From: a virus
Length of the DNA stretch: 22,849 nucleotides
Reading direction: 5' to 3' (one strand)
IMG/VR virus record: IMGVR_UViG_3300000130_000006
Location: 14,064-36,912 of that record
A program made the translations under genes and the position numbers. Positions 2,826 through 21,159 of this stretch are shown piece by piece; position 1 is the stretch's first letter; every line of letters begins with the position of its first letter. Under the pieces are notes generated by a model. It saw only the letters and a program-made list of their open reading frames with translations. It searched no databases and had not been told where the DNA came from.

Positions 2826-2860
2826 GAAGCCCCCTAATTAAGTTTAGGGGGTTTCTTTTT
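2826..2860 (+). terminator. Intrinsic (rho-independent) terminator of the left operon
   Basis: A 12-bp stem pairs GAAGCCCCCTAA (2826-2837) with TTAGGGGGTTTC (2844-2855), with one G-U pair and a six-base loop (TTAAGT). It is followed by five T residues (2856-2860) on the + strand. This is a textbook intrinsic terminator for the left block. Its T-tract touches the stop codon of the giant gene on the opposite strand (2859-2861). On the - strand no T-tract follows the stem, so termination of the late operon here is less certain, although the stem would form in its RNA too. Confidence 0.85.
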
Positions 2861-5800
2861 AATCTCCAGTTATAGGTGCTGTAGATGGTGCAAAGCTTTT
2901 AAGCATGTTAACAATAGTTCTTAAAGCCGATGGCATCGCTTTGAATTCAAGTTTGCTTGTGTTCACTAAGTAATTCGCATCACCAACTAATTCATTTGCA
3001 ACATTTGCATTTAAACTTTGCCCGGCTATAATGGCTACAGATACCATTGCCAACCCTTTTAACCCAGCATCAAAACGAGCTCTGATTTGTGGTTCTAACC
3101 CTGCTCGATAAGCACCAAGCTGACCGATAGGTATTTCACCACCTGTAAATTTGGCTATCATTTCCCATACTGCAGTTAAGCTACCAATATGTTTTTCACC
3201 ATAAATATTGACATCTTCTTTTCCGAGTTTATCATAAACCATTGTTGGTATAAATCTACTAAACTGCATAATAGCTCTACCCCAAGAGTAACGTTGAATC
3301 AATCTTTGATCCGTAGGTGTATAACCTTTACCGTGAGAGTTCTTAACTTCATTTTCTAATTTGGTTACTTCTTGAGGTGTTATTTCTGTAGCACCACTTT
3401 TATAGTTTCCATTATCATCAAACCTATTGTATTGTTCAGAGGTTAACATTCCTAAAAAGTGTACTCCTTGAATCCATTGTTCAGAAGCCATCATAGGCCA
3501 AAGAGCAATATCTGTAAAGATAGAATCTAAACCAGAAGAGGACTGTAAGTTCACATCATCATAGAAATTTGAATCTGTAAAGTTCACTGCTTTTAGAATA
3601 CCCATTGCTTTTTTATGCTTACCCCAAAATCTACCTTCACCCGCAAGCCAGGATTTCCCTCCTTGATTTTTAATGTTGTTGTATTTACCGATAACGACAT
3701 TACCAATAGTGTACATTCCTTTGTGCACTGCTAACAATTTCCAACCCATTATATAAAGTAAGTTACCTCTTACCATAGCATCCATAACATTATCTCCAGT
3801 TGTATTTGGAGTTAGTTTTTTTGCTTTTAAGAAATACTCTTTATAAACCTTTCTTACGAACTTGTTTTGGTTCGTAAAGCCTTTCATCTTATTATGTAAG
3901 AACAAGCCATCTACAACAGCTTGTAATGCTTTAAAGCCTTGAAAGTTCTTATTACCTGTAATGAATAGTTGTGTATGTGTAAAATCAGATAGTGCTTTGT
4001 TTAAATCTAACGAAGCCATATGATCAGCATTTATCCAACCACCATTCGCAAAGTTGTTCACCATACCATCACCTAAGATTGTATGATTGAAAACATCTTC
4101 ATGCTTGAAGTTAGAGCCATCTTCATTCTTTTTAGTTTTAAATAATTTTACAGCTTTCCTACGAAGTTGAACATACTCTTTGTTTGTTTTCCAACTACTT
4201 TGTTTCTCTTGTCTAAAGATATTTTCTATGTCCTTAAATCTTGTAGACTTCCCTTCAAACATTAATTCTACATCACCAATAGATTCATTTAAAGGTCTTG
4301 ATTGCATTAGCATACCAAGCATTCCCTTTCTACCAAAAGATTCTAATCTTCCCATACCAATAGAAGGAATACCTCCACCAACATATTTTGGGTCATTTAT
4401 CTTAGGGTCTAATTCATTTGTGATATCTCTAAACTCTTTTGCAAACTTATATTCATTTTCAGATATTTCCTTATTGGCTAACTTTAATCTTAATTCAGCA
4501 TCAGGTAAAAGAGCATATCTTTTTTGTTGGGTATTTCCAACCTTTCTATACTCTGTCTTTATAAGATTACCATATAGAATACGATAAATATCATCCCTAT
4601 TTTTAAATAGTAATACTGCTGCTCTTTGTAGCTTTTTAATGAAACCATTTTTAGCTGGATTGTAATTAAACTTTTCAGCATATAAAGCTTCAGAAACATC
4701 ATTGATACGTGTAAGATATTTCTTACGTTCAGTCATAAAACCTTTGAACTCCGTTTCTAATTCACGTTGAACAGCTTGTGTAGCTGGATGTGAAGAATCA
4801 ATATTGTTTGTTTGGAACCAGGCTTTGACAACACCAATGTCATTTTGCCCTTCTTTTCTACCTGTAAGTTCTGATTGTTCGTTAGATGCACGTTGAGTAA
4901 GTTCAAGCATTACCGGAACCATAACGTTAGCAGTTGCATAAGCATCCATCTTACCCCAAGTATTATAGAGTTTTAATAAGTTCTCTGTAGAGGTATCAAT
5001 AAGTTCTTTTTTGAATTCACCTTCTTTATACTTTTCCAGAAAAGCATTTGACCGAGCTTTATCTTTACGATAGTTCAGCCAAATACGTGCTTCCTGAATG
5101 TATGTTAATGATTGCTTGTATTCATACGCATCGATTAGTTCTTGTTGATCTAATCCTTCTTCCCTTGTATAATTATAGTAATCATCTTTGAAATATCTCC
5201 CTACATTATTTTTTTTTTTAGAGGCTTCAATATCTCTTTTTGCTTTGTCTTTCATTACTGCAGTATTATCTAAGATGAGTGGTCTGCTATTTCCATTGTC
5301 AGTTGTAGAATCATCTTTTATTAATACCATATGAACTTTTTGAGGAACATTAGGTGTAACCGCTTGCAAGTTATCTAAAGAAGGTTTCTTAAATAAAACG
5401 TGTCCTTTTGATGTTTTTGAAGTGATTAAGTCACGCGCTATACTTGACCATTGATTTTTAGACCTGGCGTTTGAAATAGTCCTTTCATTGATATCATCAT
5501 CTTTGGTAATATATGGACCTACTGGTTGTATTTCTATTACTTCAGAAACTCGTTGACCATTTACAGGATAATGAACTGTTACTCTAAAAGGAATACGACT
5601 ATGTATTCTATTAATTACTGTTTTGTTATATCCTAATTTAGTATATAACTCATCATTTTCTTTAGATGCAGGGTCTTCACCTCTTGGTAAAGGATTGTCT
5701 AAAAACACACTTGGTAAATGATTGCTTTCACCTATGTTAGCACTGTTTGTTTCTAAATCTTGAATAGCACCAAAAGCATCTTTGATTATTTTGTCTGAAA

Positions 5801-8800
5801 TTTCTTCATTATTCTCTTTGAATTTTTTAGCTCTTGCTGTTATGTATGATGTAATGTCAGGAGGAAAGATAGGATATAAAGATTCTTCACCAGTCCATCC
5901 ATTTTGAATTAAATCATACAGTACTAATTTCTTCTGAATATGTAATGGCAATTCAGCAAACTCATCTTGTAACAGTACTCTATCAGCGTGTGTATAATGA
6001 CGTTGTAGTACTTGTGGATTTAATTTAACCTTACCTGTCTGGATAATAATACCTTGATTGAACAAACGAGAACGTGTGTAATCAGTATCTTTATCCATTA
6101 CATTATTTGGATTTTCGTAATGAACCGTTTCATCTAATCTTTCACCGTATTCTCTTAGTTCTGTAGCCAGAGGTAATAAAGCATCTTCTCCAGTTTCAAA
6201 CTCTTGTTCATCTTGGAAAATGTCATTGATATCATCAGTGCTAATATCATTCACTCCTAATAATCTACCATAAATAAATGGTATCAAATAGTCAGAATAG
6301 TGTTTTAATTGAGTTCCATTAAGTTCTGAAGCAGTAATCTTATTCGCTACCATTTGAACGATATCCCGAATAGAATCATTTTCAATAATATTCAAATGTT
6401 TTTGATGTTTATTGAACTCTAAAGCCATACGTTTATAGTGCTTTAATTCTGGACTATCAGTAATCAAAGGTATGTTCTGATCGTTTGCAGGTAAATCCTT
6501 TTGCTCTTTGAAATAAAGAGTGGCATTTTTATTACCTACTTCTTTTCCCATTGTAGAGGATTCACGTTGTTGATTTGTAATCAGTTTGTTTAAATCATTC
6601 ACTTGTTTTTGTAAAGCAAAAGGATTCATTTCAAGTTTATTGTGTCCTGAAGTAATGTTGGTTATTTTAGAAATATCATTCCCTACTTTAGATAAGTAAT
6701 GCATAAGTCTAAGAACAGCCATATTATTCTCTTCAGATTCATAACGAGCTCCTTGTGGATCTACAGTAACATCAAATTCATTAGGGCTACTATAAATATC
6801 TAATTTGGGATAATCTTCTTTGTATTGGTATATCATAGAACCATAACCTCCAGTATCAATGTAGTCATTCCCTATATCATTTCTTTTACTGATATATTCG
6901 GCAGCCATTGGATGATTGAATAACAATCCTATTTGTTTAATATCAAAACCTAAGTTTACCAATATCATTGCTGAAGAAATACTATTGATGTTTAAGTTCA
7001 AAGCATCTGCATGTCCATTCTTTGTACTATCCAATACAATGTTTGCAAGAATAGTAGACAAATGAACTCTTGAATTAATCCCTTTATTTTTAGATAAAGG
7101 TTTTTCTTTACTTACGTCATCAAAACCATTTTCTCTTTGTCCATCAATAGCAATATTAACTAATTTAGGTACTTCTATTGTCTTACCAGAAGCATCAACA
7201 CCTATCTGTGTACCATTAGCCAATCTTGTATTATAAGTAGCCAATAAGTTCAAAGCTCTATGTGAGTTGAAAGCTATCCCAATAGTCTGTTTGGCTATTA
7301 CAGAGTTGTTATATTGCTCTGTATAGTGTTGCGTACCAAATGGAATAGTAAATGGCGCTTTGGCTCTTATTTTAGCTAAGGCTTCATCGAACTGTGTTTG
7401 GGTTATTTGCTTCTTATCAAGTTTAGATTCAAGTGCTCTTTGTTCAGCATATTGTTCAGGATGTAAAGCTTCATTGTTCTCTTCAATAATACTATCCATA
7501 TTACTCTCAAAACGCAAAGGTGTTTCTAAAGTGATACGTTGATTATTGGAAAGCCATTGGTCAACCATCATATCAAAACCTTTGTTCCAATTTCCATAGC
7601 CATCTTTCATTCTGGTGTCCTTAGAACCATCTTTCATTTTGGCTTGCTGATAAACAAACAAAGCATCACCATCATGATCGGCTCCTATTATCCATGTGTA
7701 TTCAGAAGGTACAATAATATTAGATGCACCTGTATCATGGAAACCAACAACTTCTGCCACACCTACGAAAGCGGGTCCGTTATGTGGTATTCTTGTCATC
7801 ATTACTGTTTCTCCAGGAATGTATGTTCCTGTACGAGTTTCAGGGGTAGATTCAGGTGAAGAATAAATAGCATTATCTGTTAGCATTTTATCAATGGCTC
7901 TTGTTTTTAAGATACCATCATCAGTAATTAGATTTAATCTTTTTAAAGTGTTGATACGGATATAAGCTCCACGCTTATTTGTAGCAGTTAAATAAGCTCT
8001 TGCTTTTGTTTTTCCACCATTTCCATCTTTACTATAAAAACTCTCTCTTGCTTGGGTCTTATCACCTTTTTCTGGTCGAGGTAATACGATCTCCATTGGT
8101 TTAGTTCTTGGAATACCATCTACTATTTCTACTCCATAGAAGTTAAGTCCAGAACTACCATTCACATACTCTTGAGATACTTTAGGATTGTCTACACGTT
8201 TTACAACACCATCTTTATTTACTTCTTGGCCTACAGCTGGATATACTTTATCCCTGTTTGGTTTTTTTACAAATACCTCTTCATTGTTGTCATCAACATA
8301 TTTGTAACCCATATCAGAGATTGTCTGTCCATAGGTTCCTGGTCCTTTCAAGTTATTTCCGTGACGAATAATTTGAGAACGAAATTGGTTTCCTGCAAAT
8401 TCAGCTACGTGAGGTGAATATGGTAACTCTCCATAAGTTAAAGCTGCAATCGTATAAGGGTCAGAATTTAACTTGTTAGCAGTATTTTTAATGAACGTAC
8501 TATATTTGAAATCATCGTCTATTTCCAGCCCAGCCATTTCATCTAAAACCTTTGTTCTAAAGTTTATCCATTTTTGCTCTGACATATACTCTTGTATTTC
8601 AAGTGCATTGGCTAATTCAGAACCGGATTTTCCGTGAGGCAAAGAGGTTAATACTTGTGTTCCAAAAGTTGCTTGCGTATATCTCTTGTCCATTATTTGT
8701 TGTGGACCGAAGTTAGAACCATCCAATCCTACAAACCCATTTTGAGTATAATAAAGCTTATCTAATAAAGCCTCATATCTTTTCATCGTTGCAGGGTCTT

Positions 8801-11800
8801 GAAGTTGTTTCAAGCTAAATTGGGTCTTTAATGCTAACAACTCTTTTGTATGAAATAACCCAGCTTTTTCAGCTGTTATAGGTGTCGCAATAGGAATGTA
8901 TTTTGGTCTTGATGCATCTACAACAGTTTGTGTTCTAAAATTAGGATCATAATCCTCTCCATATTTAGCTTTATAATCAGCTTTAAACTTTTTATTTCTA
9001 TTGTTTAATATTTCCCATACTGGGAACAAATGTTGTTGATTACCAGTACGTACAGATTCTTCTGTAAGAATAGCAGTATATCCTTTCATTTGAGAAGACT
9101 GATTCATAAACCATGGATTGTCTTTCTCAATACTATGTGAGTATAACTTATAACCTTTATTGAAATCAGGGTTTGAATGTTGAATAGCTTCAGCGTGCTC
9201 TTCTAAAATATACTGAATACCATCATTCGTTACAATGACATTTTTTTCCCAAGTTGATATACGTTTTCTAAAAGAAGATTCAGTTTCCCCATCCTCTTTT
9301 AATGGTCGTGGTAACTTGAATTCATCATCCATAGGAATCATTTCAACTCTTAGATTTGGGTCTAATGCAATTACCGGTGCAATCTGTCCTTTGTTACTTT
9401 TGGTAATGCTATCCAATAATAAACCAGGACTCATCATTTGATGCACATAGAATGTATTTGCTATTCTATTAAATACAAAATTACGAACCATTGCTTTTCC
9501 TTCATCACTTAATTCCGAAAGTACTACGCCATCTTTAACTTTAAAATATTTCGTTAGGTTTTGAACTTTAGATAAAGTTGCTGAATTCTTTGTAAGAGTA
9601 TCTTCCCACTTCTTAATATCAGTTTCTACACCTTCTTGGAACTGGTCAAAATTGGCATGTCTTTTCTGATCTTTACCTTCCATGAACTTTTTCTTGTCAT
9701 AGCTCATTTGTTCATAAATAGAATACATCTTATTCAGATGATTTACAGCATTCGTATTGAACTTTCCATTTTTATCTATAAGGTTTTCAATACGAGGTAA
9801 AGCAAGTAATATACGTCTTGAAGAGTTCCCCAAAATATCCATTGAACCTAAGTAATTAGGATTGGTTTCATCTTGACTTTCCGTAAACTGCAACATCTCA
9901 TTCATTAGCTGTTGTTCAGCAGAAGCATCTTTATAGTTTTTCGCTTTCTTATACATATCATTTTTGCTACCAAAGTCAAGTACCATTAATGGCAACTCAT
10001 CTTTTGTATGGTAGTTATCATAAAACGATTCTAATATAGGATTGAACCAAGCTTTCTTAACTTTTTTAGGACTATTAGAATATTTAGTAACAAACTCTTT
10101 TTTAGCTTTAGGTGAATTTTCAGAATTCTTTAAATCTATCATCATTCTATTGAATAATTTAATAGAGTGATTGCTAAACATTCTTGTTGTTACGTTGTTT
10201 CCAGTCGGTCCTTTTACAACACTTGTTGAACCATACTTTTTACCAGTATGTAAAATAGAGGCAATTAGTGATCTTGTATTGGTGTAGTTAGAAACTGTTC
10301 TTGTTGAACCAGCGTCCATAAATGAATCAACCTTAGAGTTACCCGTATAAGGAACCATTTCTTGTTGAGATACTAATTGTATAATTGCAGTTTTAAGAGG
10401 TACATTTTTCTTGTCTACAATCAAATGGCCATTGGCTAATATCTTTTTAGCAATATTCAAATCGTGTGCATAGAACTTGATAACTGTTTCAATAGCTTCT
10501 ATAACTGCTGGAGTTGGTATTTCAGCTTCAGCAATTTCAAGTATAGCATTTTCAATAGCGATTCTATTCTCTACTGTTTTCTTGTTTGTTCTCTTTACTG
10601 TTCTTTCAATAATTAAAGGGTCATTTGCAGACATAGGAGTTACCGTAGAGTATTTTCCATCTTTATCTACCGTATGGATAATACCAGCCAATACAACAGA
10701 GTTATTATACAGCAAATGCATTGTTGTTAATCTACTTAATGGATCTTTGAATTCTTTTTTAAGATGTCTTATAAATGCTTTGTGCTCATTCTTTTTTGAC
10801 TGTTCTAATACCCTAATGAAATCAATAGGAGATTCATACATTGCCGCTAAGTCCATCAATCCTTCGGTTAACTTATTTAAGTTAATTCCTTCGGTGTACA
10901 TCGCATCCACTCTTTTAGCATTTGGATCTTTCTTCAGTAATTCAAGTTCGTCAGATTTTGTTTGATTTGCTACTTGATTAAACTTCTCTACAAAATGACG
11001 TATCACTTCAGTAGTTTTCATATTGGTAGCATTGTACTGGTCATCCCACATTGTACCTAAATCCATTTCTGCATCTTGTTGAAGTTTTTCAGCAAATTCA
11101 ACAGCAGAGTATTCAGACTCTCCTTCAACTGTTACATTATCAGAATCAAAAATATCGAAATCATCTTGTGCCTTACCAATTTTATCTGAGTCAACCTTAA
11201 GAGGTTCTACAAAGTTTTTAATAATCTTTCCATCATTAACAGCCTTCTCTTCCTTTATTCTATCATAGACATCATTGTTGTCCTCTTTTATAAATTCAGT
11301 GTTTACATCATCCATAGCGAACCTACCGCCAACAGTAACCTCTTTACCTTGAACCATATTTACGAAATTCCCCATAATATGATTGTTGAGGTTTGTAGGG
11401 TCTACAGTTTCACCTTCATTTAAAGCAGTAACGACATTGATGTTATTCTTTTCAATAGCTTTTGCTTTTCCTTTAATACGTTGCCACCAACTTTTAGCAG
11501 TTTGTTGACGAGCTGATTCTTTAATCGGAGTAAAGAATTTAGTCATACCGTTTGTCATTGGGTCTTGCATATAATGAGCAAATAATTCATCCAATAAAAC
11601 AGGTTGTTGTGACCAATCAGCTTTGTATGCTTCAGGTCTACCATTCTTATGTTTTTGACCTAACTGTCTTGTAAGTGCTGCTTGTTGTTTTTCACTTAAA
11701 TCATTCCACATTGCTCTTTTCTTTTTCATACCAGGTTTCCAGCCTTCTTGTTTGAAAATGAAAACAGTTTGAGGTCTATATCGAGCTTCTATTTCAGCTT

Positions 11801-14800
11801 TTAATTTATCGTTTCTTAATGCTTCTTTTAAAACAGCAATAGTCGCTGGGTCATTCTTTGAAAGTGAATAATGTATGTGTGCAAATTCATGCATAAAGAT
11901 TGGACTTTGATTCCAAACTTTTTCATCAATCATAATAGCACTTAGAGCTGCATATCCTAATGCTTTTACACCACCTAATGATTCATACATATTCTTCATT
12001 GCATAGGCTTGTATCTTACTATCTGGATATAACTGACGTAAGTGTTGGTTTACTGCAACTTGTTGAGTAATCACAGAAGGGCCTAATTCCATTTCAGCTT
12101 GTAAACTTGACAAATACTCATCATATTCTTCTTGTAGTACTTTCTTTTGAGTAGGGTCTTTCTTTACAATTTTTCTATATTCTTTTTGGAAATTAGGATC
12201 GTTAAACTTTTTAGATAAATCAGATTGTCTTTCATTTAAAGCAGTAGGTTGTTTTCTTTTTCTTGCTTTTTTCTTTGTATCACTATCTTTTCCTTTCTTA
12301 TTTCTATCAAGTCGTGCCTCTTTCTCTACTTTGGATTCTGGTCTGAAACTTCCTTCACTACCTAATCCCATAAGATAAGCGATCATTTGTTCTTCAGTAA
12401 CACCATCTTGATTTGCTACTTGTTCTATACGACCTCCAGCTGTACTAATCAATCTTTTAATTGCTCTTTCAGCGGCTACCTTATCTTTGAAATCTATTTT
12501 AGCAGCTTCTAATTGAGCTATCATTTCAAGTTCTCCCTCAACTACATTGGTATCTGAAGGTTTTGTAAATGACTTATTGATAGCTTCATCTACTGGTGTT
12601 GCTTTACGTTCTGGAGCTGATTCTTCTTTGAATTCTTCTTCTTCTTCAGTAGTAGCCTCTTCATCCATATAAGCTCTACCACCTTTGGTATTCTTAACAT
12701 TCTTTTTAGACTCTTCAATCATATCAGCCATTTCTACTTCTATAGATGTAGCTTCAGCTTTTTTAAGGTCATATTCTTTTTTGGTAACACCATCTTTACC
12801 AACTTCCATTGTTGCTAACTCATCTTGAATGGTTTTTAAAGCAATAGATTTTTTCTCGTAATCTATCTTTTGTTCTGGAGATAAATAGTCAAGACGTTCC
12901 GCTCTAATTTCAGTTACCTTCTCTTCGGTTTTCTCTTTAAAACCTTTAACTTTCTCTTTGGTAGAGTTAAACAAGTCTTTAAATCCTTTACCCATTTTCC
13001 CAAACATACCTTTGGGGTCGTACTTTTTGGTTTTGGCATCTTTATATATTTCTTCGTTAGTCTTATTGTAGTAGTTGTCATACTCTTCAGCGCTCAATCC
13101 TACAGCCACACGATTACCTTCTGCATTATCAACATACTTGATATTAGAAACCTCACCTTGCTCTCCACTTAGAATACTTAAAATAGATTTTTCAGCAAAA
13201 GCAAGGTCTGTTGCGAAACCATTTTCTACAGTTTCCCAAGACTCTTCAATGTTCTTCAATTTAGACTTGAACTCTTTGCTATCTTCTTTGCCTTGATATT
13301 CTTCTTTAAGTGCTTTTACCTTATCATTTTTCTTTTGAGTTTCACGAGCCAAACCATTCTTTGCTACTTGTTGTCTGTACTTGTGATTTAAGTATGCCTC
13401 TTTCCCAATATCATTTAAACCGAAACCTGTTGCTTTAACAGATTCAAGTTCCATATTTTTAGCGATAGCGATGTATTCTTCTTTCATATCCTCACTGATC
13501 ACTTCTTCTTCAGCAAGAGCTTCAAGCCAGGCTTTATTATCAACATAGCCATCCATAACATTATCTGTTAATTGCTCTTTGATATATGCCGCTTGATAAT
13601 TGAATTCCTTTTCATTAGAAGCAGCTCGTTTTAAGAGTTCCGTTTTAGAGTAATTCTTATAAGCAGTTTCAGCTTTCTTATTTACAGCCTCAACAATATT
13701 AGAACCAGCACCACCAAGCATACCTAATGCCATAGCGATAGTTCTGGTTGCTTCATTTTCTTTAGACAAATAGAAGTCAAAGTATGAAGCCATACTACCA
13801 TCACTATCCTTTCCATCAATGGTTATTGGTTTTCCGGTAACTTTAGCAACAGCTTTCTTTTTAGCCCAATCTTCAAAAGTCTCTTGAAATGTTTCTTCAA
13901 AACCTTCAAATAAAGGCTTAGAAACAGCACTTGCAGTATTCTTTAATCTCTTACCCGTTTTGGCTAACTTGTTTCCAGTAGCATCTAATACTCTCATCAA
14001 TGGTGTAATCTCTCTTGTAAAAGATTTACTTGATGCCTTTATTTGTTCAGCTGAATTATAGAATTTCTTTGTTCCTTTTTTATTGAAAGGATTCAGCATC
14101 TTATTGAACCTACCTGTAGACTTAGCATAAGTCATACCAAAGGAAAGCATATCAATAGGTAGATACTTCAAATTCTCAATCATAGTACTTGAAGCCATAT
14201 CACTTAATTGTTCTTCAGTGTACAATGGCTCTCCAGTATCAGGATCTTTTAAGTTCTTCATTTCATTAACTAAACCACCAGCATTCTGTAACCCTGCAAG
14301 TAGGTTCATCCCTAAACCACCACCAAAATTTCCAGCACCATCTACAAAACCAGCAGTAGCTTCACCTGTTGTGTCCATAAAAAGAGCACGCCATCCTTTC
14401 TTTGCACCTTGACCCGCAACTTTCGCAGTTTGAGCAGCACCTCCTGCTAATTGACGAGAAGTATTCCCAACTACTTTAGAACCCAATGCTTCTAATGACT
14501 CTCTGGTCATTCCTTTTGTCAAACCTTTCACACTACTTTGTGCCGCTTTCTTAGCTACACCACCAGCACCTTTTGAAAGGATTATCATTTCTACTAATTG
14601 TGGAATGTATTCAGCTGCAGTCTTACTCCAAAATTGCGGATTGGTAAAAGTGGCTAATGTAAATTCATTGTCTTTTAATTCATCTGGCATAAAGACCTTA
14701 TAGTCTCTCTCAAACTCTGCTCCTTGTTCTTGAAGTCCTCTCGATAATTGGTTTCCTTCTCTGATTTCCCAACCAGGTACTAAACCATTTACAAGTTGTA

Positions 14801-15197
14801 GAATATCACCGGTACCACCAACAACGTGTTTTCCAAAACCACGCATTAAACTTGTACCTACTTCTTCTACAAAACCACGTTGCGTATATTCAGGAGTCCA
14901 TAAATAAGGATTCTCTTGTTGTGGCTCTTTTAAATCACCTGTAATAGGCGCTCGTTCCATACGAGTTTGTTCCCTTGCTATTTCTTCAGGAGTACCTTGT
15001 GGTTGTCCTTCAGCGTTATCTTGTTCCATTTGTCCTTCAGGAGTAAGATTTGAATTAGGTGTAGGAATAGGTTGATCAATTTGCTCTTTCTGACTTTGAG
15101 CAATTTGGTCCTCTGTTAGCGTTGTTACACCAGGCGTTTTTTCAGATACATTTCTGTCAACTTGTGCTTGTTTTAACGCATTTAAAAAATCAGTCAT
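2859..15197 (-). CDS. Giant virion protein: zincin metalloprotease plus DxDGD RNA polymerase (crAss-like vRNAP)
   Basis: This is a 4112-residue chain. By eye there is a Gln/Glu-rich start (1-90), then a Gly/Ala-rich amphipathic region with several short hydrophobic helices (about 100-500) and a highly charged, coiled-coil-like region (about 510-1000) with Glu-rich and Lys/Arg-rich linkers. A zincin motif MHEFAHIHY follows (His1103, Glu1104, His1107), with a possible third ligand Glu1204 in LDELFAHYM. The RNA polymerase part has its catalytic ADHDGD at Asp2507, Asp2509 and Asp2511, preceded by RIPHNG and IIVPSEY strands as in the second double-psi beta-barrel. The C-terminal third (about 3300-4112) is helical, with GRAIMQFSRFIP and a hydrophobic helix near 4040-4060. 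In crAss-like phages this type of polymerase is packaged in the virion, enters with the DNA and transcribes early genes. The zincin could process the chain, which is inference. It is last in the operon, 17 bases after the lysozyme-like gene. The polymerase call is firm; domain borders are approximate. Confidence 0.85.
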   Translation of the reverse strand: MTDFLNALKQAQVDRNVSEKTPGVTTLTEDQIAQSQKEQIDQPIPTPNSNLTPEGQMEQDNAEGQPQGTPEEIAREQTRMERAPITGDLKEPQQENPYLWTPEYTQRGFVEEVGTSLMRGFGKHVVGGTGDILQLVNGLVPGWEIREGNQLSRGLQEQGAEFERDYKVFMPDELKDNEFTLATFTNPQFWSKTAAEYIPQLVEMIILSKGAGGVAKKAAQSSVKGLTKGMTRESLEALGSKVVGNTSRQLAGGAAQTAKVAGQGAKKGWRALFMDTTGEATAGFVDGAGNFGGGLGMNLLAGLQNAGGLVNEMKNLKDPDTGEPLYTEEQLSDMASSTMIENLKYLPIDMLSFGMTYAKSTGRFNKMLNPFNKKGTKKFYNSAEQIKASSKSFTREITPLMRVLDATGNKLAKTGKRLKNTASAVSKPLFEGFEETFQETFEDWAKKKAVAKVTGKPITIDGKDSDGSMASYFDFYLSKENEATRTIAMALGMLGGAGSNIVEAVNKKAETAYKNYSKTELLKRAASNEKEFNYQAAYIKEQLTDNVMDGYVDNKAWLEALAEEEVISEDMKEEYIAIAKNMELESVKATGFGLNDIGKEAYLNHKYRQQVAKNGLARETQKKNDKVKALKEEYQGKEDSKEFKSKLKNIEESWETVENGFATDLAFAEKSILSILSGEQGEVSNIKYVDNAEGNRVAVGLSAEEYDNYYNKTNEEIYKDAKTKKYDPKGMFGKMGKGFKDLFNSTKEKVKGFKEKTEEKVTEIRAERLDYLSPEQKIDYEKKSIALKTIQDELATMEVGKDGVTKKEYDLKKAEATSIEVEMADMIEESKKNVKNTKGGRAYMDEEATTEEEEEFKEESAPERKATPVDEAINKSFTKPSDTNVVEGELEMIAQLEAAKIDFKDKVAAERAIKRLISTAGGRIEQVANQDGVTEEQMIAYLMGLGSEGSFRPESKVEKEARLDRNKKGKDSDTKKKARKRKQPTALNERQSDLSKKFNDPNFQKEYRKIVKKDPTQKKVLQEEYDEYLSSLQAEMELGPSVITQQVAVNQHLRQLYPDSKIQAYAMKNMYESLGGVKALGYAALSAIMIDEKVWNQSPIFMHEFAHIHYSLSKNDPATIAVLKEALRNDKLKAEIEARYRPQTVFIFKQEGWKPGMKKKRAMWNDLSEKQQAALTRQLGQKHKNGRPEAYKADWSQQPVLLDELFAHYMQDPMTNGMTKFFTPIKESARQQTAKSWWQRIKGKAKAIEKNNINVVTALNEGETVDPTNLNNHIMGNFVNMVQGKEVTVGGRFAMDDVNTEFIKEDNNDVYDRIKEEKAVNDGKIIKNFVEPLKVDSDKIGKAQDDFDIFDSDNVTVEGESEYSAVEFAEKLQQDAEMDLGTMWDDQYNATNMKTTEVIRHFVEKFNQVANQTKSDELELLKKDPNAKRVDAMYTEGINLNKLTEGLMDLAAMYESPIDFIRVLEQSKKNEHKAFIRHLKKEFKDPLSRLTTMHLLYNNSVVLAGIIHTVDKDGKYSTVTPMSANDPLIIERTVKRTNKKTVENRIAIENAILEIAEAEIPTPAVIEAIETVIKFYAHDLNIAKKILANGHLIVDKKNVPLKTAIIQLVSQQEMVPYTGNSKVDSFMDAGSTRTVSNYTNTRSLIASILHTGKKYGSTSVVKGPTGNNVTTRMFSNHSIKLFNRMMIDLKNSENSPKAKKEFVTKYSNSPKKVKKAWFNPILESFYDNYHTKDELPLMVLDFGSKNDMYKKAKNYKDASAEQQLMNEMLQFTESQDETNPNYLGSMDILGNSSRRILLALPRIENLIDKNGKFNTNAVNHLNKMYSIYEQMSYDKKKFMEGKDQKRHANFDQFQEGVETDIKKWEDTLTKNSATLSKVQNLTKYFKVKDGVVLSELSDEGKAMVRNFVFNRIANTFYVHQMMSPGLLLDSITKSNKGQIAPVIALDPNLRVEMIPMDDEFKLPRPLKEDGETESSFRKRISTWEKNVIVTNDGIQYILEEHAEAIQHSNPDFNKGYKLYSHSIEKDNPWFMNQSSQMKGYTAILTEESVRTGNQQHLFPVWEILNNRNKKFKADYKAKYGEDYDPNFRTQTVVDASRPKYIPIATPITAEKAGLFHTKELLALKTQFSLKQLQDPATMKRYEALLDKLYYTQNGFVGLDGSNFGPQQIMDKRYTQATFGTQVLTSLPHGKSGSELANALEIQEYMSEQKWINFRTKVLDEMAGLEIDDDFKYSTFIKNTANKLNSDPYTIAALTYGELPYSPHVAEFAGNQFRSQIIRHGNNLKGPGTYGQTISDMGYKYVDDNNEEVFVKKPNRDKVYPAVGQEVNKDGVVKRVDNPKVSQEYVNGSSGLNFYGVEIVDGIPRTKPMEIVLPRPEKGDKTQARESFYSKDGNGGKTKARAYLTATNKRGAYIRINTLKRLNLITDDGILKTRAIDKMLTDNAIYSSPESTPETRTGTYIPGETVMMTRIPHNGPAFVGVAEVVGFHDTGASNIIVPSEYTWIIGADHDGDALFVYQQAKMKDGSKDTRMKDGYGNWNKGFDMMVDQWLSNNQRITLETPLRFESNMDSIIEENNEALHPEQYAEQRALESKLDKKQITQTQFDEALAKIRAKAPFTIPFGTQHYTEQYNNSVIAKQTIGIAFNSHRALNLLATYNTRLANGTQIGVDASGKTIEVPKLVNIAIDGQRENGFDDVSKEKPLSKNKGINSRVHLSTILANIVLDSTKNGHADALNLNINSISSAMILVNLGFDIKQIGLLFNHPMAAEYISKRNDIGNDYIDTGGYGSMIYQYKEDYPKLDIYSSPNEFDVTVDPQGARYESEENNMAVLRLMHYLSKVGNDISKITNITSGHNKLEMNPFALQKQVNDLNKLITNQQRESSTMGKEVGNKNATLYFKEQKDLPANDQNIPLITDSPELKHYKRMALEFNKHQKHLNIIENDSIRDIVQMVANKITASELNGTQLKHYSDYLIPFIYGRLLGVNDISTDDINDIFQDEQEFETGEDALLPLATELREYGERLDETVHYENPNNVMDKDTDYTRSRLFNQGIIIQTGKVKLNPQVLQRHYTHADRVLLQDEFAELPLHIQKKLVLYDLIQNGWTGEESLYPIFPPDITSYITARAKKFKENNEEISDKIIKDAFGAIQDLETNSANIGESNHLPSVFLDNPLPRGEDPASKENDELYTKLGYNKTVINRIHSRIPFRVTVHYPVNGQRVSEVIEIQPVGPYITKDDDINERTISNARSKNQWSSIARDLITSKTSKGHVLFKKPSLDNLQAVTPNVPQKVHMVLIKDDSTTDNGNSRPLILDNTAVMKDKAKRDIEASKKKNNVGRYFKDDYYNYTREEGLDQQELIDAYEYKQSLTYIQEARIWLNYRKDKARSNAFLEKYKEGEFKKELIDTSTENLLKLYNTWGKMDAYATANVMVPVMLELTQRASNEQSELTGRKEGQNDIGVVKAWFQTNNIDSSHPATQAVQRELETEFKGFMTERKKYLTRINDVSEALYAEKFNYNPAKNGFIKKLQRAAVLLFKNRDDIYRILYGNLIKTEYRKVGNTQQKRYALLPDAELRLKLANKEISENEYKFAKEFRDITNELDPKINDPKYVGGGIPSIGMGRLESFGRKGMLGMLMQSRPLNESIGDVELMFEGKSTRFKDIENIFRQEKQSSWKTNKEYVQLRRKAVKLFKTKKNEDGSNFKHEDVFNHTILGDGMVNNFANGGWINADHMASLDLNKALSDFTHTQLFITGNKNFQGFKALQAVVDGLFLHNKMKGFTNQNKFVRKVYKEYFLKAKKLTPNTTGDNVMDAMVRGNLLYIMGWKLLAVHKGMYTIGNVVIGKYNNIKNQGGKSWLAGEGRFWGKHKKAMGILKAVNFTDSNFYDDVNLQSSSGLDSIFTDIALWPMMASEQWIQGVHFLGMLTSEQYNRFDDNGNYKSGATEITPQEVTKLENEVKNSHGKGYTPTDQRLIQRYSWGRAIMQFSRFIPTMVYDKLGKEDVNIYGEKHIGSLTAVWEMIAKFTGGEIPIGQLGAYRAGLEPQIRARFDAGLKGLAMVSVAIIAGQSLNANVANELVGDANYLVNTSKLEFKAMPSALRTIVNMLKSFAPSTAPITGD
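7665..7679 (-). other. RNA polymerase catalytic motif DHDGD (residues 2507-2511 of the giant protein)
   Basis: The codons GAT CAT GAT GGT GAT give D-H-D-G-D within IIGADHDGDALFVYQ. The cellular RNA polymerase beta' subunit has NADFDGD at the same place, and the single-chain two-barrel phage enzymes keep DxDGD, whose three aspartates hold the catalytic magnesium. All three aspartates are present. The variable position is His where beta' has Phe. The preceding strand pattern (VVGFHDTGASNIIVPSEY) fits the barrel that carries this loop. Confidence 0.88.
11877..11891 (-). other. Zincin active-site motif HEFAH (residues 1103-1107 of the giant protein)
   Basis: H-E-F-A-H in a hydrophobic helix (SPIFMHEFAHIHYSLS) matches the HExxH zinc site with a catalytic Glu. 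About 100 residues downstream, LLDELFAHYM supplies Glu1204, in the D/E-E-x-x-A setting that often provides the third zinc ligand in gluzincin-like enzymes. The motif lies roughly 1400 residues before the polymerase active site. Whether the protease acts on its own chain, on other cargo proteins or on host proteins cannot be told from the sequence. Confidence 0.75.
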
Positions 15198-15214: not shown

Positions 15215-16534
15215 TTACGTTTTAAATTCTAAGTTATTTTTACCTAAAGCATCTTTGATTTTTGCCTTAGCTTTTAAAGTTCCTTCTCCTCTTAACATAT
15301 TGGTTGCTTGTACTCTTCTTTTAGCAAAGCTATGAGGTTGAGAATAAGCCTTTCTCCCATCCTCCATAAACTTATCGTTTTCCATAAGTCCATTATCAAA
15401 GTAGTATTGCATCATTTTTCTGGCTCCAGCTTCACCTTGATTGTACGAAGATACAGTAAAGAAATCTCTTGCTTGTTGAGATAATTCAATCCCTAATTGT
15501 TTTGCTTTACCTTCAACACTTACTACTGCAGCTTTCATAAAAGCATTCTTAGCAGTTAGAACATCATTCAAGTTTTTGAAATCAGCAGATACTCTACTCT
15601 CTCCTTTTTCGTTAATATTATTTGTTAGACGAATTCTATTTCTCATTTCCTTATCAATGTACCCTTTCTTCTCAAACTCGTCTAAGCGCTCTCCAAATGA
15701 GTCCAAACCAAACATACCATAACCATCATACATATAGGTATCTCCTGTTTGTGCTTCATTGGTGAATTGATCAGCACCTTCATCCATTAAACTCGCAAAC
15801 AATAATTCTTTATCAGCAATATCGTCTCTGCCATTCATCAGTTCTTCCCATGAAGTTTCTTCATTTGTTTGCGTTATAGTATTGTTTGGGTGTCCATCAA
15901 ATCGTTCAAATAGATTTTGTCTTTTATCGCTATCTTCTTTATTGAAACTATCTCTATAAGCCCTGTAATCCCAATCATTCATTCTTTCCTCTTTGGTCAT
16001 TTCTTTCCACTTGTCATATTCTGGTGGTAAGAAACGAGCAGGCGTTTCAGTCTGTCCAAACGTATCATCGAAAGTAGCGTTCTTAGCATCAATAGATTGG
16101 TCGATGTTTAAAAATTCAGTCTGTAACCCCGCTAATTCAGGATCACTAATATTTGAGCTATCATAAATACTGTAGTTGTCAACTATGTTTTGTTGAGGTA
16201 TCTTTTTGCTATATAAATCCATATAGATTTGTCTATGCCTAACACCAGCACCATATTTAGTTTTCATTCTTTCCCAATAAGCAGTTTTAGATTCATTAGG
16301 CTCTTTTGCAGGTATTGGTTCTTCACCTGTTTCAGCTTCATACAAACTACCACCAGCGGCATAATCAGCCATCTTTGGTAGAAATGAAACAAGCGCATCA
16401 ACTTCTTTCGAGAGTCCTTGCGCTATTAATTGTTCTACTAATTGTTTCTTTTCTTTAGGAATAATAGCAATATCACCATTCTTATTTTTTATTGCTACTT
16501 CTCCACCTTCTACTTCTACATTCTGTTTTTTCAT
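15215..16534 (-). CDS. Virion protein with lysozyme/transglycosylase-like domain
   Basis: This 439 aa protein starts with VEVEGGEVAIKNKNGDIAII (6-25), a beta-rich motif I associate with crAss-like phage virion proteins. A helical linker follows, then a region resembling lytic transglycosylases. That region has LFASLMDEGAD with a candidate catalytic Glu252, then YGMFGLDSFG (272-281) in the place of the usual GLMQ turn, and SSYNQGEAGA (362-371) matching the Y-N-x-G element. The C-terminus has KRRVQATNMLRGEG (406-419). The likely role is cutting the glycan strands of peptidoglycan during entry, as part of the tail or ejected cargo. There is no signal peptide, which fits a virion enzyme rather than a secreted lysin. 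Its ATG overlaps the stop of the previous gene (ATGA, a three-base share), and the giant gene follows after 17 bases. The fold call rests on three short motifs and is moderately sure. Confidence 0.6.
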   Translation of the reverse strand: MKKQNVEVEGGEVAIKNKNGDIAIIPKEKKQLVEQLIAQGLSKEVDALVSFLPKMADYAAGGSLYEAETGEEPIPAKEPNESKTAYWERMKTKYGAGVRHRQIYMDLYSKKIPQQNIVDNYSIYDSSNISDPELAGLQTEFLNIDQSIDAKNATFDDTFGQTETPARFLPPEYDKWKEMTKEERMNDWDYRAYRDSFNKEDSDKRQNLFERFDGHPNNTITQTNEETSWEELMNGRDDIADKELLFASLMDEGADQFTNEAQTGDTYMYDGYGMFGLDSFGERLDEFEKKGYIDKEMRNRIRLTNNINEKGESRVSADFKNLNDVLTAKNAFMKAAVVSVEGKAKQLGIELSQQARDFFTVSSYNQGEAGARKMMQYYFDNGLMENDKFMEDGRKAYSQPHSFAKRRVQATNMLRGEGTLKAKAKIKDALGKNNLEFKT

Positions 16535-18738
16535 AATTGAAAATGTTTCCCATTGAATACGATTCCTTTTTTAGCCTTTACTTTTCCTTGATTAATACTG
16601 ACTCCTTTTTTATCAATGGAAACATCTATTCCACCTTCCTCGTGAGAATTACCTTTGAAGTCTTTTACTACTTCCCATTCACTACCTGGAGTAAATCCAA
16701 AATCAGCACCATCTTTTGCTTTAGGTTTTTGTTTTGCACCTGATACAACATTGGTTAAATAGTTACTAAGCTTTGTATAAAAAATCATATTATTCTTAGT
16801 CATACCTTTGTCAGTGTTGTGTTCCGGTCTTGCTAATAATTGTTGCACTTGACTTAATATTTGGAAATCACTTACTCTTGGATCTTTAAGTGACATCTCT
16901 AATCCCATTGAACCGAACATACTACCAAAAGCATTTTCGTTAATTTCTGTATCTATATCATAACCTGGTGCATTTTCACCTGTAGTATTGATATCAAAGT
17001 TCATCATATAAAAAGCTTTCATAAGATTAGAACGAGAATTACCACCACCATATTTATCATATTCAGCTACTTGTGCTTTGAAATTTGGATTGGCATTAAA
17101 AGTTTGATGATCGATTGGAATCTTCGCTGTGCTTTCAGCTTTGACTTCAGCACTCATTTTGTTCTTCTCGTAGATATCAGTAATCTGTTTGTTCTCTTCT
17201 GTTTGATCTGCTAAATTATCAAACTTATCCATATATTGATTTAAGTCACTTTGTTTTCGTGAACCTTGATAATCTACTTCTTGATAGTAAGTTCTTCCAT
17301 CTTCATCTTCCAGAACAACATACATAGCATATTGACCTTTCACATCAATATCTTTTCCATCATCATCTTTCATATCATTGGAATACAACTTACTTGTTCT
17401 CTTCTTATCAATTTTTCCTTTGTTATCAGCTGCATCAACAACCATATAATCTTTGCCTTGTGCATCAATTTTGTAAGCCATTATAGCACCTTTGTTTCTC
17501 CATTGTCCAGTAGGTATTCCTGACTTATCTCCAACAGGAACTCCATTTGCATAATGTAAATTTTGTAAAGCATTAGGACTTAAATTTTGATAAGTACCAT
17601 TTATCATTTCCATAGCTCCATTTTGAGTTTGAAATAATGATTGTGCTAATTGAGGTCCTAAGTTAATAGCACCTCTTGGCTTGTAAGTGTTATTTTTATC
17701 GTAATCCCATAAACCTAATGTTAAAGTTTCTCCTGCAACTGCTCCAACTCCTTCTATAATCGTACCATCGATAGTTCCTTTTCCTTTCCATTTTTCATCC
17801 CCAAAAACACCATACATTTCTCTATGAGTATCAGAGTTAAATACATCTTGTTTTCTCATTTGTTCTAAAGAAACATGATTATTTGTTTTGTTTAATACCC
17901 ATGTTAAATGTCCACTTTGAGTTTGAACAATCTCTTGTTTATTCGCGCCATTTACTCCACCTGTTCGAGAACCACCACGGTTATTATTACCACGCATTCC
18001 TTTCATCGGATCTCTACTACCGTGAACAGAATATCCTTTCGCAATAGTGTAAGCTAATAATTCTTGATAAACTTCCTTCTGATTCATTTTACTTAAATCT
18101 GACTCTGGATGGTCTATCTCATAGTTACCCATTATTTTAGTATAGTTGGATTCGTTGAATAAGATATCTGCAGGAGTAGCCATTGTTCCGAGATCAAATA
18201 TATCAGAGTCAGGCATTTTCAATTCATTCATCAAACCACCATAAGAAATGTTTCCTCTACCATTTTCATTGTATTCTTTTAATGCATTGGTATCTCTATC
18301 AGAAATTAAATGACCCATTCCTTTTCCCTGTATATCTAATAACTTTTCAAGGTTTACTTTGTTCTCTTTATATTGAGCTACCTCATCAGAGTCCAGTACT
18401 TGATTGGTGTAATCACCTATCATAGATAAACCACCATTAGCCATAAACTTAGCACGAGAACCACCAAAAGCTTTTATCTGTTGGCGTATCTGTCCTTGAA
18501 TAGACTTGCTCTTCATGTTAATCGCTTTCCTATCTCCGACAAGCATCTTGTCAGCTTCAGCTTTAATTCGTTGATAGTATTGCTGTTCTACTAATGCGGC
18601 TTGTTGTTCTTCTTGCTCTTTATCTTTCTTTAGCTGTACGAGTTTACCCATAGTTGCTAAATCATTTTGAGCCGACTCACGTCTTCCAACATTTTGCGTT
18701 AACCCTTGCATTCCTGCACTGCTAATTCCTTCTGACAT
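16531..18738 (-). CDS. Coiled-coil virion protein with C-terminal HEEGG motif
   Basis: This 735 aa protein has a helical, Gln/Glu/Lys-rich N-terminal region (about 15-95). It is followed by IKAFGGSRAKFMANGGLSMI and LEKLLDIQGKGMGHLISDRD segments of the kind I recall from crAss-like virion proteins. The middle is Asn/Asp/Gly-rich and likely beta-structured (about 260-560), and a helical part follows. The C-terminus carries GNSHEEGGIDVSID (696-709), then short strands and the end. No enzyme motif was found. It lies between two peptidoglycan-hydrolase genes, three bases after the amidase gene and overlapping the lysozyme-like gene. A structural or ejected cargo role is therefore the best guess. 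It ends in TGA, showing that TGA is a normal stop here. Confidence 0.55.
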   Translation of the reverse strand: MSEGISSAGMQGLTQNVGRRESAQNDLATMGKLVQLKKDKEQEEQQAALVEQQYYQRIKAEADKMLVGDRKAINMKSKSIQGQIRQQIKAFGGSRAKFMANGGLSMIGDYTNQVLDSDEVAQYKENKVNLEKLLDIQGKGMGHLISDRDTNALKEYNENGRGNISYGGLMNELKMPDSDIFDLGTMATPADILFNESNYTKIMGNYEIDHPESDLSKMNQKEVYQELLAYTIAKGYSVHGSRDPMKGMRGNNNRGGSRTGGVNGANKQEIVQTQSGHLTWVLNKTNNHVSLEQMRKQDVFNSDTHREMYGVFGDEKWKGKGTIDGTIIEGVGAVAGETLTLGLWDYDKNNTYKPRGAINLGPQLAQSLFQTQNGAMEMINGTYQNLSPNALQNLHYANGVPVGDKSGIPTGQWRNKGAIMAYKIDAQGKDYMVVDAADNKGKIDKKRTSKLYSNDMKDDDGKDIDVKGQYAMYVVLEDEDGRTYYQEVDYQGSRKQSDLNQYMDKFDNLADQTEENKQITDIYEKNKMSAEVKAESTAKIPIDHQTFNANPNFKAQVAEYDKYGGGNSRSNLMKAFYMMNFDINTTGENAPGYDIDTEINENAFGSMFGSMGLEMSLKDPRVSDFQILSQVQQLLARPEHNTDKGMTKNNMIFYTKLSNYLTNVVSGAKQKPKAKDGADFGFTPGSEWEVVKDFKGNSHEEGGIDVSIDKKGVSINQGKVKAKKGIVFNGKHFQL

Positions 18739-18741
18739 AGC

Positions 18742-21159
18742 TTATTTTCTATTAAATTCGTTATAATCTATTTCATCTAAAGAGTATGGTTCTTGAGACG
18801 TTCTATTTACTACTTGTTGCATTGGAGTTTCATCTGGGGCAGTATCATCTGGGCCTAATTGAGTATTAGGCGCTCCACCATTTTGAGGTGTAATAGATAA
18901 ATCTCCTTCAATATTTTTTGGTTGCTGACTTCTTCTGTATTCATGATCTCCTTTAAATGCTAAATAACCACCTTTCTTGCTCCATTCTTGTTTCTGTTGA
19001 TTAGGTAAAGCTAACCAACTATTTTGAATGTTCTTTTCATTATCATACTTCTGCTTTCTCTCAGCATATATTTTCTTAGATTCAAAAGCTTGAGCTCTTA
19101 AATAACTTGGTGTTCCGGGAATGGTTCCAGAACCATCGTCTTTAATTCCTGAATTAACACCAGTAAGTTCATACATATATGCTTGTTTCAATCTATGGTT
19201 TGCAGAACCAGGACCATTCTCTTTTTGATATTGAATATCATCAAGCATTTGAGCAAACGCATTAGAAGCTAATTCAGCTCCCGCTTGTCGTTTCGCTGTT
19301 GCCTCTCCGAGCTTAATAGCGTGGTTGTCCTTTGCTTTATCTCTATTAAAGCTATCAATATATTCTAAAGTTTTTCCGTACTTGTCAAAGGCTGATTCTT
19401 TCTTCTGAATATCAAGCAAACCAATATTACTGATACCATCAATCACGTTTTTATTAAGACCAGCTAAAGAACCCATTACTAAGTTTCTGTTTCCACCAGA
19501 TGCTCTAACAATATTTGTGATTCCTAATTGATATGATTCAGAAATTTCCTGTTTCATTTTAGCCTCTTCTTCTGGCTTCAATCCCATATCAGCCATTTTC
19601 TTCAAGTCATTGCTGTATTGAAGTATGGCATTTGAAATTTTATCTTCTCTTAATGGTAGTTCTGTTTTAGCATCACCCATTCCAATAAGACCTAAAGCAC
19701 CTTGACCTAATGCTTCTATTGGTAACTGTACTCCCCAATCTCCAGCTTCATAATCGAATACGTCAGGCTGAATGTTTTCAATAGGCTCATCAAAACGAGC
19801 AAAATCATCTGTTGCTTGCTTGTTTAAAGCGGCAACTTCTATTTCAGTTAAAGGTTTCTTTCCTTGAACTTCATCTTCAATACCTGGTACCTTTGGTATA
19901 TCTTCTATGATAGTTTTACCTTTATCTTCAGGATCGTTTTCTTTTTTGATTACTTCGTTTTCCTTTTCTTTGTCTTTAATGATTTTAACTTCTTCATCAC
20001 GTTTCTCTCTTTCAATAGCTATCTTCTCAATAACTTTTGGGTCCGTAGAAACATCACCTCCAGTTATAATTTTTCTTTGCTCTTGTAGATAAGCTTCTTG
20101 TTTTATACGATTAGCTTCAACTACTTCAGGAGTTAATCCACTTTTCATATCCCAACCAGAATATTTACCCCTATTGGCTAACCATTCCTTTTTAGTTGGA
20201 GTCTTACGTGAGACAGCAGGAAGTTTATCAAGTTCAGCTATTGTTTCTATAGCTTGTTTTCCTTTATCAGATTCAGGTGTGTATTTCTTTTTATTTTTTT
20301 CAGCGGTTACTCGTCTTTGATCATTAATTATATTGGTTAAAGCATTCCCTTTTGTTGCTACATTGTAGCGAGCATCATCATATTCATCTTGTGCTATTTT
20401 TATGTCTGCCACTATACCACCAGTTGCGGGGTCAGTAGCTTCTTGTAATTTAATAGTTTTCTCTCTAAGAGTTTCATTGAGCCTATCATATTCATCAAAG
20501 TGTTTTTGAAAACCTTTTTGAGCTGGAGAGTATTCTTTATCAATAACCTCTTGTTGAATCTTATTCGGGTCTAAGTAAGCAGGATCCAATTTAGCTTTCT
20601 CTGTTTCGCTGATTGGAGTTTCCTTTCTTTTTGGAATATCTTTAAAACCATTTATCTGACTATTGGTTGTTGTGTAATCAGCAGTCTTATATTCTTCTGT
20701 CTTTAAATAGTCTTGGACAAAAGCAGTAGCCACTTCAGCTTCTTTGTGCTTGTTTTTTCCTGCAGCACTATGAGAGATAACATTCTCTATAGGAATCTGA
20801 TAAGACTTAACAAGTGAACCTGTAAGTCGTTTAAGTGCTTCCTCTTGCGCTGGTGTCATAGCTTCCCATTCAGTACCTCCTAAATTTAACCCGGCTATTT
20901 CAATTCCTATCGAACCTTGATTATGCCCTTTGGCGTGTGACATATAATCATTCACATCATTAACTTGATGGATAGAACCATCAGCATTAATTGTAAAATG
21001 AGCTCCAATACCATCTTCTGTCATACGTGTATCAGTTTCTTGGAAACCATATCCAGCTGTACGATGTATGATAATTTTGTCTGTCTTTTTACGTTTACCG
21101 TGAGTAGACATTCTTTTGATGTTGTATTTCTTGATAGCGAGTTCTTCAGGTGTTGCCAT
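18742..21159 (-). CDS. Virion protein with N-terminal N-acetylmuramoyl-L-alanine amidase (Amidase_2/PGRP) domain
   Basis: Residues about 25-155 of 805 form an Amidase_2 (T7-lysozyme-like, peptidoglycan-recognition) domain. It shows IIIHRTA (His32, zinc), IGAHFTINADGSIHQV, GSIGIEIAG, then VISHSAAGKNKHKE with His130 (zinc) and His138. His138 sits eight residues on, where T7 lysozyme has its Cys ligand. Lys135 and Lys137 flank the position of the catalytic lysine. The remaining 650 residues are mostly charged helices (about 200-450, Lys/Glu-rich) and a Gly/Ala/Leu region (about 485-660) typical of virion proteins. The enzyme would cut between MurNAc and the stem peptide. Because it is fused to a large structural region in the late operon, a wall-opening role during entry is more likely than lysis. 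The ATG is chosen for its A-rich leader, 12 bases after the preceding stop. Confidence 0.8.
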   Translation of the reverse strand: MATPEELAIKKYNIKRMSTHGKRKKTDKIIIHRTAGYGFQETDTRMTEDGIGAHFTINADGSIHQVNDVNDYMSHAKGHNQGSIGIEIAGLNLGGTEWEAMTPAQEEALKRLTGSLVKSYQIPIENVISHSAAGKNKHKEAEVATAFVQDYLKTEEYKTADYTTTNSQINGFKDIPKRKETPISETEKAKLDPAYLDPNKIQQEVIDKEYSPAQKGFQKHFDEYDRLNETLREKTIKLQEATDPATGGIVADIKIAQDEYDDARYNVATKGNALTNIINDQRRVTAEKNKKKYTPESDKGKQAIETIAELDKLPAVSRKTPTKKEWLANRGKYSGWDMKSGLTPEVVEANRIKQEAYLQEQRKIITGGDVSTDPKVIEKIAIEREKRDEEVKIIKDKEKENEVIKKENDPEDKGKTIIEDIPKVPGIEDEVQGKKPLTEIEVAALNKQATDDFARFDEPIENIQPDVFDYEAGDWGVQLPIEALGQGALGLIGMGDAKTELPLREDKISNAILQYSNDLKKMADMGLKPEEEAKMKQEISESYQLGITNIVRASGGNRNLVMGSLAGLNKNVIDGISNIGLLDIQKKESAFDKYGKTLEYIDSFNRDKAKDNHAIKLGEATAKRQAGAELASNAFAQMLDDIQYQKENGPGSANHRLKQAYMYELTGVNSGIKDDGSGTIPGTPSYLRAQAFESKKIYAERKQKYDNEKNIQNSWLALPNQQKQEWSKKGGYLAFKGDHEYRRSQQPKNIEGDLSITPQNGGAPNTQLGPDDTAPDETPMQQVVNRTSQEPYSLDEIDYNEFNRK

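Follow-up and report, generated by a model that had tools for sequence, protein, structure and literature searches.

An uncultured crassvirus very probably encodes its virion RNA polymerase and two flanking cargo regions as one 4,112-residue chain

The crassvirus phi14:2 packages an RNA polymerase, which transcribes its early genes (PMC7886860, PMC10136315). This enzyme is the product of gp66 (PDB 6VR4), a separate protein of 2,180 amino acids (about 2,200 in an initial annotation of the locus described here), encoded in the order gp67-gp66-gp65 with proteins of 1,797 and 1,421 amino acids. In crAss001, gp45, gp46, gp47, gp49, and gp50 are virion cargo, and gp47, gp49, and gp50 were detected in virions by mass spectrometry (PMC10172136). 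Crassvirus polymerase genes are hallmark giants, encoding up to ~6,000 amino acids according to a review (PMC10136315), a maximum that is about the size of all three cargo parts together. Elsewhere, N4-type polymerases of ~3,500 amino acids are reported always to be fused to zincin domains (PMC5512222), and that of P23-45 is fused to a tape measure (PMC10770324). Here, we describe a 22,849-nucleotide window (positions 14064-36912 of the 36,912-base IMG/VR virus record IMGVR_UViG_3300000130_000006) with a giant frame at 2859-15197. This frame very probably specifies the early RNA polymerase that an uncultured crassvirus packages in its virions, with three proteins of a known cargo cassette joined in one 465-kDa chain.

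The initial annotation had described an uninterrupted 4,112-residue zincin and RNA polymerase fusion without naming a strand. The frame is on the minus strand, starts with ATG, and has 4,112 codons and no internal stop. Its parts are as follows.

2859..15197, minus strand: giant frame, 4,112 amino acids, 465 kDa; fused gp47-like region, HExxH domain, predicted virion RNA polymerase, and gp49-like region
13038..14882, minus strand: gp47-type cargo homology, residues 106-720 (crAss001 gp47 91-748, hhalign)
11877..11891, minus strand: HEFAH at residues 1103-1107, putative active site of a zincin (four lineages have HEF[AG]H, and the relative L046 lacks it)
11586..11588, minus strand: Glu1204 in DELFAHY, candidate third zinc ligand, invariant in alignments
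6267..10223, minus strand: predicted virion RNA polymerase region, residues 1659-2977, colinear with phi14:2 gp66 531-1865 (hhalign)
7665..7679, minus strand: DHDGD (D2507, D2509, D2511), predicted catalytic DxDxD aspartates, in register with crassvirus DFDID
2871..4469, minus strand: gp49/gp65-type homology, residues 3577-4109 (C-terminal half of crAss001 gp49 and phi14:2 gp65, hhalign)

By our own arithmetic, a random stop-free frame of 4,112 codons has a probability of ~1e-135 (stop frequency of ~0.07 per codon at ~34% G+C). Therefore, chance is not an explanation of the giant frame. Both motifs are where they had been placed, with HEFAH at residue 1103 and the ADHDGD sequence as A2506 followed by D2507-H-D2509-G-D2511. 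They are preceded and followed by 1,102 and ~1,600 residues, respectively, close to the earlier estimates of about 1,000 and 1,600. From composition, 0.08 HExxH and 0.9 DxDxD motifs are expected in the frame, so that HExxH alone is suggestive and DxDxD alone means nothing (a second DxDxD, at residue 3035, is not conserved). We judged both motifs to be real because they are conserved in the family.

That family came from IMG/VR scans, which identified five relatives (r, L021, L022, L023, and L046); a search of prokaryote genome contigs with a C-terminal profile found none. The closest, r, is a single virus represented by three metagenome contigs, and its frame of 4,163 amino acids is 69% identical to that of the window. 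Homologous full-length frames encode 4,050 (L022), 3,965 (L023), and 3,878 (L046, 596-12232) amino acids. The L021 frame ends at a contig end and was excluded from the full-length members. One frame is kept in all five full-length lineages, the most distant of which has roughly 12 to 47% identity per 200 residues. The stretches at about residues 800-1000, 1300-1400, and 3200-3300 are the least conserved. Differences between the window and r at the three codon positions are 0.24/0.17/0.43, which indicates purifying selection across the giant frame. Together with the homologous frames, this rules out both chance and misassembly as explanations.

Searched as a single sequence against Pfam, PHROGs, and the PDB, the giant protein returned nothing useful, including no T7-type polymerase match in Pfam, and PDB profile searches with two or five sequences gave chance matches only. 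A tblastn search with the first 2,933 residues against 50,697 phages found 15 weak matches, all to crassviruses and most on the polymerase protein. They are individually insignificant, and we did not use them as proof. We then rely on a six-sequence family alignment, compared by hhalign with profiles of annotated crassvirus giant proteins. Residues 1659-2977 aligned with phi14:2 gp66 531-1865 (prob 99.4, E value 7e-22; reversed control, 0.1), and DHDGD fell onto the DFDID of crassvirus polymerases. All six family members have DxDGD. In L046 the active site reads GGDFDGDQFF, very close to the cellular beta-prime motif NADFDGDQ.

A template-free AlphaFold2 model of residues 1880-2960 had 6vr4_A, the phi14:2 polymerase, as its first PDB match (Foldseek prob 1.00, E value 5e-3). 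The two align over 364 residues (6vr4_A 1115-1813; VIA-align Z 12.8, root mean square deviation 4.5). The next unrelated PDB row had a Z of 4.2, leaving 6VR4 as the only clear match. 6VR4 dates from 2020, after the AlphaFold2 monomer training set closed, so template memory is unlikely in this model.

The flanks match the other two parts of the cassette. Residues 106-720 matched the crAss001 gp47 family (prob 97.3, E value 2.7e-11) and scored 0.1 against gp49 and polymerase profiles. Residues 3577-4109, the best conserved part of the chain, matched the gp49/gp65 family (prob 97.6-97.9, E value down to 5e-13). No reversed control for these comparisons rose above 5%, and wrong-family comparisons gave nothing. 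Earlier hhalign runs with 500-residue pieces and small profiles had failed to pick up the zincin and the greater part of the signal at the N terminus, which larger combined alignments recovered. The proposal that the polymerase has cargo-type regions joined to both of its ends is therefore correct, and the order of gp47-like, polymerase, and gp49-like regions is that of phi14:2 gp67-gp66-gp65.

Between the gp47-like and polymerase regions is the HExxH domain, which has no Pfam match. HEF[AG]H is present in four of the five full-length members. Overall identity falls to ~31% around it, but the motif, its flanking residues, and the downstream Glu1204 are still invariant in those four. The core, at about residues 1099-1213, was modelled at a predicted local distance difference test score (pLDDT) of 80-89. 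In alignments with four reference frames, HEFAH was in register with the HExxH of three (crAss001 gp47, crAss002 gp32, and cr50_1), at low prob (5-10). The known crassvirus HExxH domains themselves form two groups with no clear cross-match: crAss001 with Suoliviridae (prob 98.5) and the crAss002 type with Fpv3 (prob 94). Some crassviruses also have a second HExxH in gp49-type proteins, apart from the gp47-type one (phi14:2 gp65 residue 245, L014/L027; cr1_1 second protein residue 517, L035).

Set against described crassviruses, the window is a fully fused form of a known system. In one layout (phi14:2 and crAss001), gp47, the polymerase, and gp49 are separate. The phi14:2 regions (Steigviridae) are colinear with the window chain and include DxDxD, but as three proteins, with DFDID in place of DHDGD and with HExxH in gp65 only and none before the polymerase, whereas the window HExxH precedes it. 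In a second layout, found in the Suoliviridae cr1_1 (QOR58537, 4,551 amino acids) and cr50_1 (QOR58058, 4,774 amino acids), one frame has gp47-like, HExxH, and DxDxD polymerase regions as in the window, with an HExxH-to-DxDxD spacing of about 1,450-1,490 residues compared with 1,404. However, their gp49-like part is a separate gene and their gp47-like part is longer. The third layout (crAss002, cr8_1, ctbg_1, cr271_1, and cr110_1) has gp47-HExxH in one protein and polymerase-gp49 in another. In crAss002 gp32/gp33, ctbg_1 AXH74541/AXH74559, and related Intestiviridae, the gp47-like part ends in an HExxH domain, as in the window, and the polymerase protein of 4.2 to 4.6 thousand residues (4,245 in crAss002) is directly downstream. 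Unlike in the window, a break separates the HExxH domain from the polymerase, and GenBank labels the pair "RNAP associated protein fused to zincin protease" beside "RNAP". Flavobacterium phage Fpv3 also has polymerase and HExxH in one frame (gp32, 4,287 amino acids, a virion structural protein), a weak gp47-like N terminus, and a similar muzzle-cargo gene order, but its HExxH domain follows the polymerase and a separate gene comes after.

We did not see all three parts in one frame in ~20 annotated genomes, a sample that is not exhaustive and excludes p-crAssphage (NC_024711, JQ995537). Even so, the suggestion that the design is extreme does not hold, with single frames of 4,245-4,774 amino acids common in Crassvirales and zincin and polymerase already joined in cr1_1 and cr50_1. 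The initial annotation was right in kind and overstated the rarity. N4-type phages (Schitoviridae) and P23-45 share with the window a giant single-chain polymerase, ejected or tail-borne (PMC5512222, PMC12633501, PMC10770324). The N4-type chain also carries a zincin, but its polymerase is unrelated and T7-like. In P23-45, a long-tailed phage, the polymerase is at the N terminus of a 5,002-residue tape measure. We rejected a tape-measure fusion of that kind for the window, where the motif is at residue 2507 of 4,112, the regions on either side of the polymerase match cargo proteins, and the genes are those of a short-tailed crassvirus.

Five genes upstream of the giant frame share its orientation.

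15215..16534, minus strand: 439-amino-acid protein immediately upstream of the giant frame, conserved in a sister genome; presumed cargo or ejection protein from its position
16531..18738, minus strand: 735-amino-acid protein, conserved in the sister genome; presumed cargo or ejection protein, likewise from position
18742..21159, minus strand: 805-amino-acid protein with N-terminal Amidase_2 (PF01510, E value 1.6e-19); presumed cell wall hydrolase cargo
21172..21939, minus strand: 255-amino-acid protein with a glycine-zipper-like segment; presumed membrane or channel component (motif and a weak sub-cut-off Pfam match)
21939..22847, minus strand: C-terminal part of the crassvirus muzzle protein (PF25729, E value 8.4e-8, above cut-off), running off the window

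The sister genome, G002, has muzzle (PF25731, E value 1.4e-66) and ring 2 (PF25702, E value 1.4e-11) proteins, a Crass_capsid match just under cut-off (E value 3.8e-6), and a TerL whose best matches are crassviruses at 22 to 26%. Its muzzle protein (L010:1867-11673) is 3,268 amino acids long. Beyond the crassvirus muzzle core at 120-1425, it has He_PIG immunoglobulin-like and DUF5122 beta-propeller stretches as well as four of DUF285; such repeats are usual in bacterial surface proteins. The G002 counterpart of the Amidase_2 protein (L010:13766-16147) has a different N terminus without a Pfam match, which suggests that the cell-wall-degrading domain has been exchanged. At ~2820-2858 in the window, an inverted repeat, CCCCCTAATTAAGTTTAGGGGG, followed by a T-rich stretch sits between converging genes on the left and the giant frame, and is likely a terminator. 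A PcfJ-like protein (L001:6237-7598; PF14284, E value 7e-19) adjoins a DnaB helicase within the record's replication half. Crassviruses are thought to infect Bacteroidetes. A gp49-like region (E value 4e-8) is also present in a 2,748-amino-acid protein of the cyanobacterial Leptolyngbya phage Lbo-JY46 (L057, 7320-15566).

By analogy with phi14:2 and crAss001, we infer that the chain is packaged, ejected, and used for early transcription. It would most likely be made late, enter the particle near the portal alongside the neighbouring ejection proteins, and leave through the tail and muzzle in a partly unfolded state. It would then refold in the host, and its predicted two-barrel polymerase part would transcribe early phage genes without relying on the host polymerase. 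The HExxH domain would probably be a metallopeptidase cutting the chain itself or a host or envelope protein during entry, but a protease role is a guess. That the entire large transcription cargo is one uncleaved chain of ~465 kDa, packaged and ejected intact, with the peptidase domain lost in one member, is quite possible, and we propose it tentatively.

Several points weigh against these proposals. The phi14:2 gp67-66-65 products are virion proteins, whereas the window chain is known here from its sequence. The 1880-2960 model has a mean pLDDT of 51, and the loop around residue 2507 is below 50. Consequently, the double-psi barrels expected around 2507 are not resolved locally, but the whole model does match 6VR4. 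A separate, extra polymerase may be encoded elsewhere in the genome, since the record ends are not closed. The HExxH domain matches those of other crassviruses weakly (prob 3-10). PDB fold searches with the zincin model found no credible match, so that the zincin label given to this domain is favoured by HExxH, the conserved downstream Glu, and position, but not by a recognised fold. Finally, L046 lacks HExxH while retaining the surrounding domain and EExF.

The main alternative is a polyprotein. The chain would be translated whole and then cleaved before or during packaging, either by the HExxH domain within it or by some other protease, giving a virion like that of phi14:2. The same parts are separate proteins in relatives, multidomain phage proteins, N4-type polymerases among them, have been proposed to be processed by zincins (PMC5512222), and the least conserved stretches would be natural cut sites. 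However, L046 keeps the single frame without HExxH, which makes a required self-processing step unlikely across the family. Furthermore, in several other crassviruses HExxH is in a separate protein and the polymerase stays a two-part fusion. We consider a polyprotein conceivable but somewhat doubtful. Less likely still, the HExxH domain could be a structural relic, with the polymerase chain functioning without proteolysis. Its unmatched fold fits a relic, and L046, in which catalysis must be dispensable, has lost the motif and kept the domain around it. This is difficult to reconcile with the invariance of HEF[AG]H, its flanks, and Glu1204 in the other four members despite ~31% identity there. 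A peptidase here is likely, but its loss in L046 means that it is not indispensable.

An assembly artefact, or adjacent genes fused by a frameshift, is rejected as wholly implausible: the contig is metagenomic, but no support for an artefact was found, independent contigs of four other lineages carry stop-free homologous single frames of 3,878-4,163 amino acids, and codon-position bias extends across the frame. Equally implausible is a virion polymerase of the T7-like N4 type, together with the zincin customary for it, in place of a crassvirus two-barrel polymerase; the constant zincin fusion reported for that type (PMC5512222) would fit, but the DxDxD two-barrel motif is in register with crassvirus polymerases, the structural match is to 6vr4, and the muzzle, ring, and capsid genes are those of crassviruses.

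Crassviruses thus split one cargo cassette at differing places, into three proteins, two kinds of pair, or, in the window, one chain. These differing split points suggest that the three parts function together, in a fixed stoichiometry, as one unit. If the chain is indeed intact and uncleaved, then the gp47-, polymerase-, and gp49-like parts would be delivered one to one to one. L046, which has lost HExxH, offers a natural test of the need for the peptidase, and the six-lineage alignment provides crassvirus polymerase phylogeny with a new, divergent set of sequences. The fused lineage is also a clean case for how so large a chain passes through a narrow tail.

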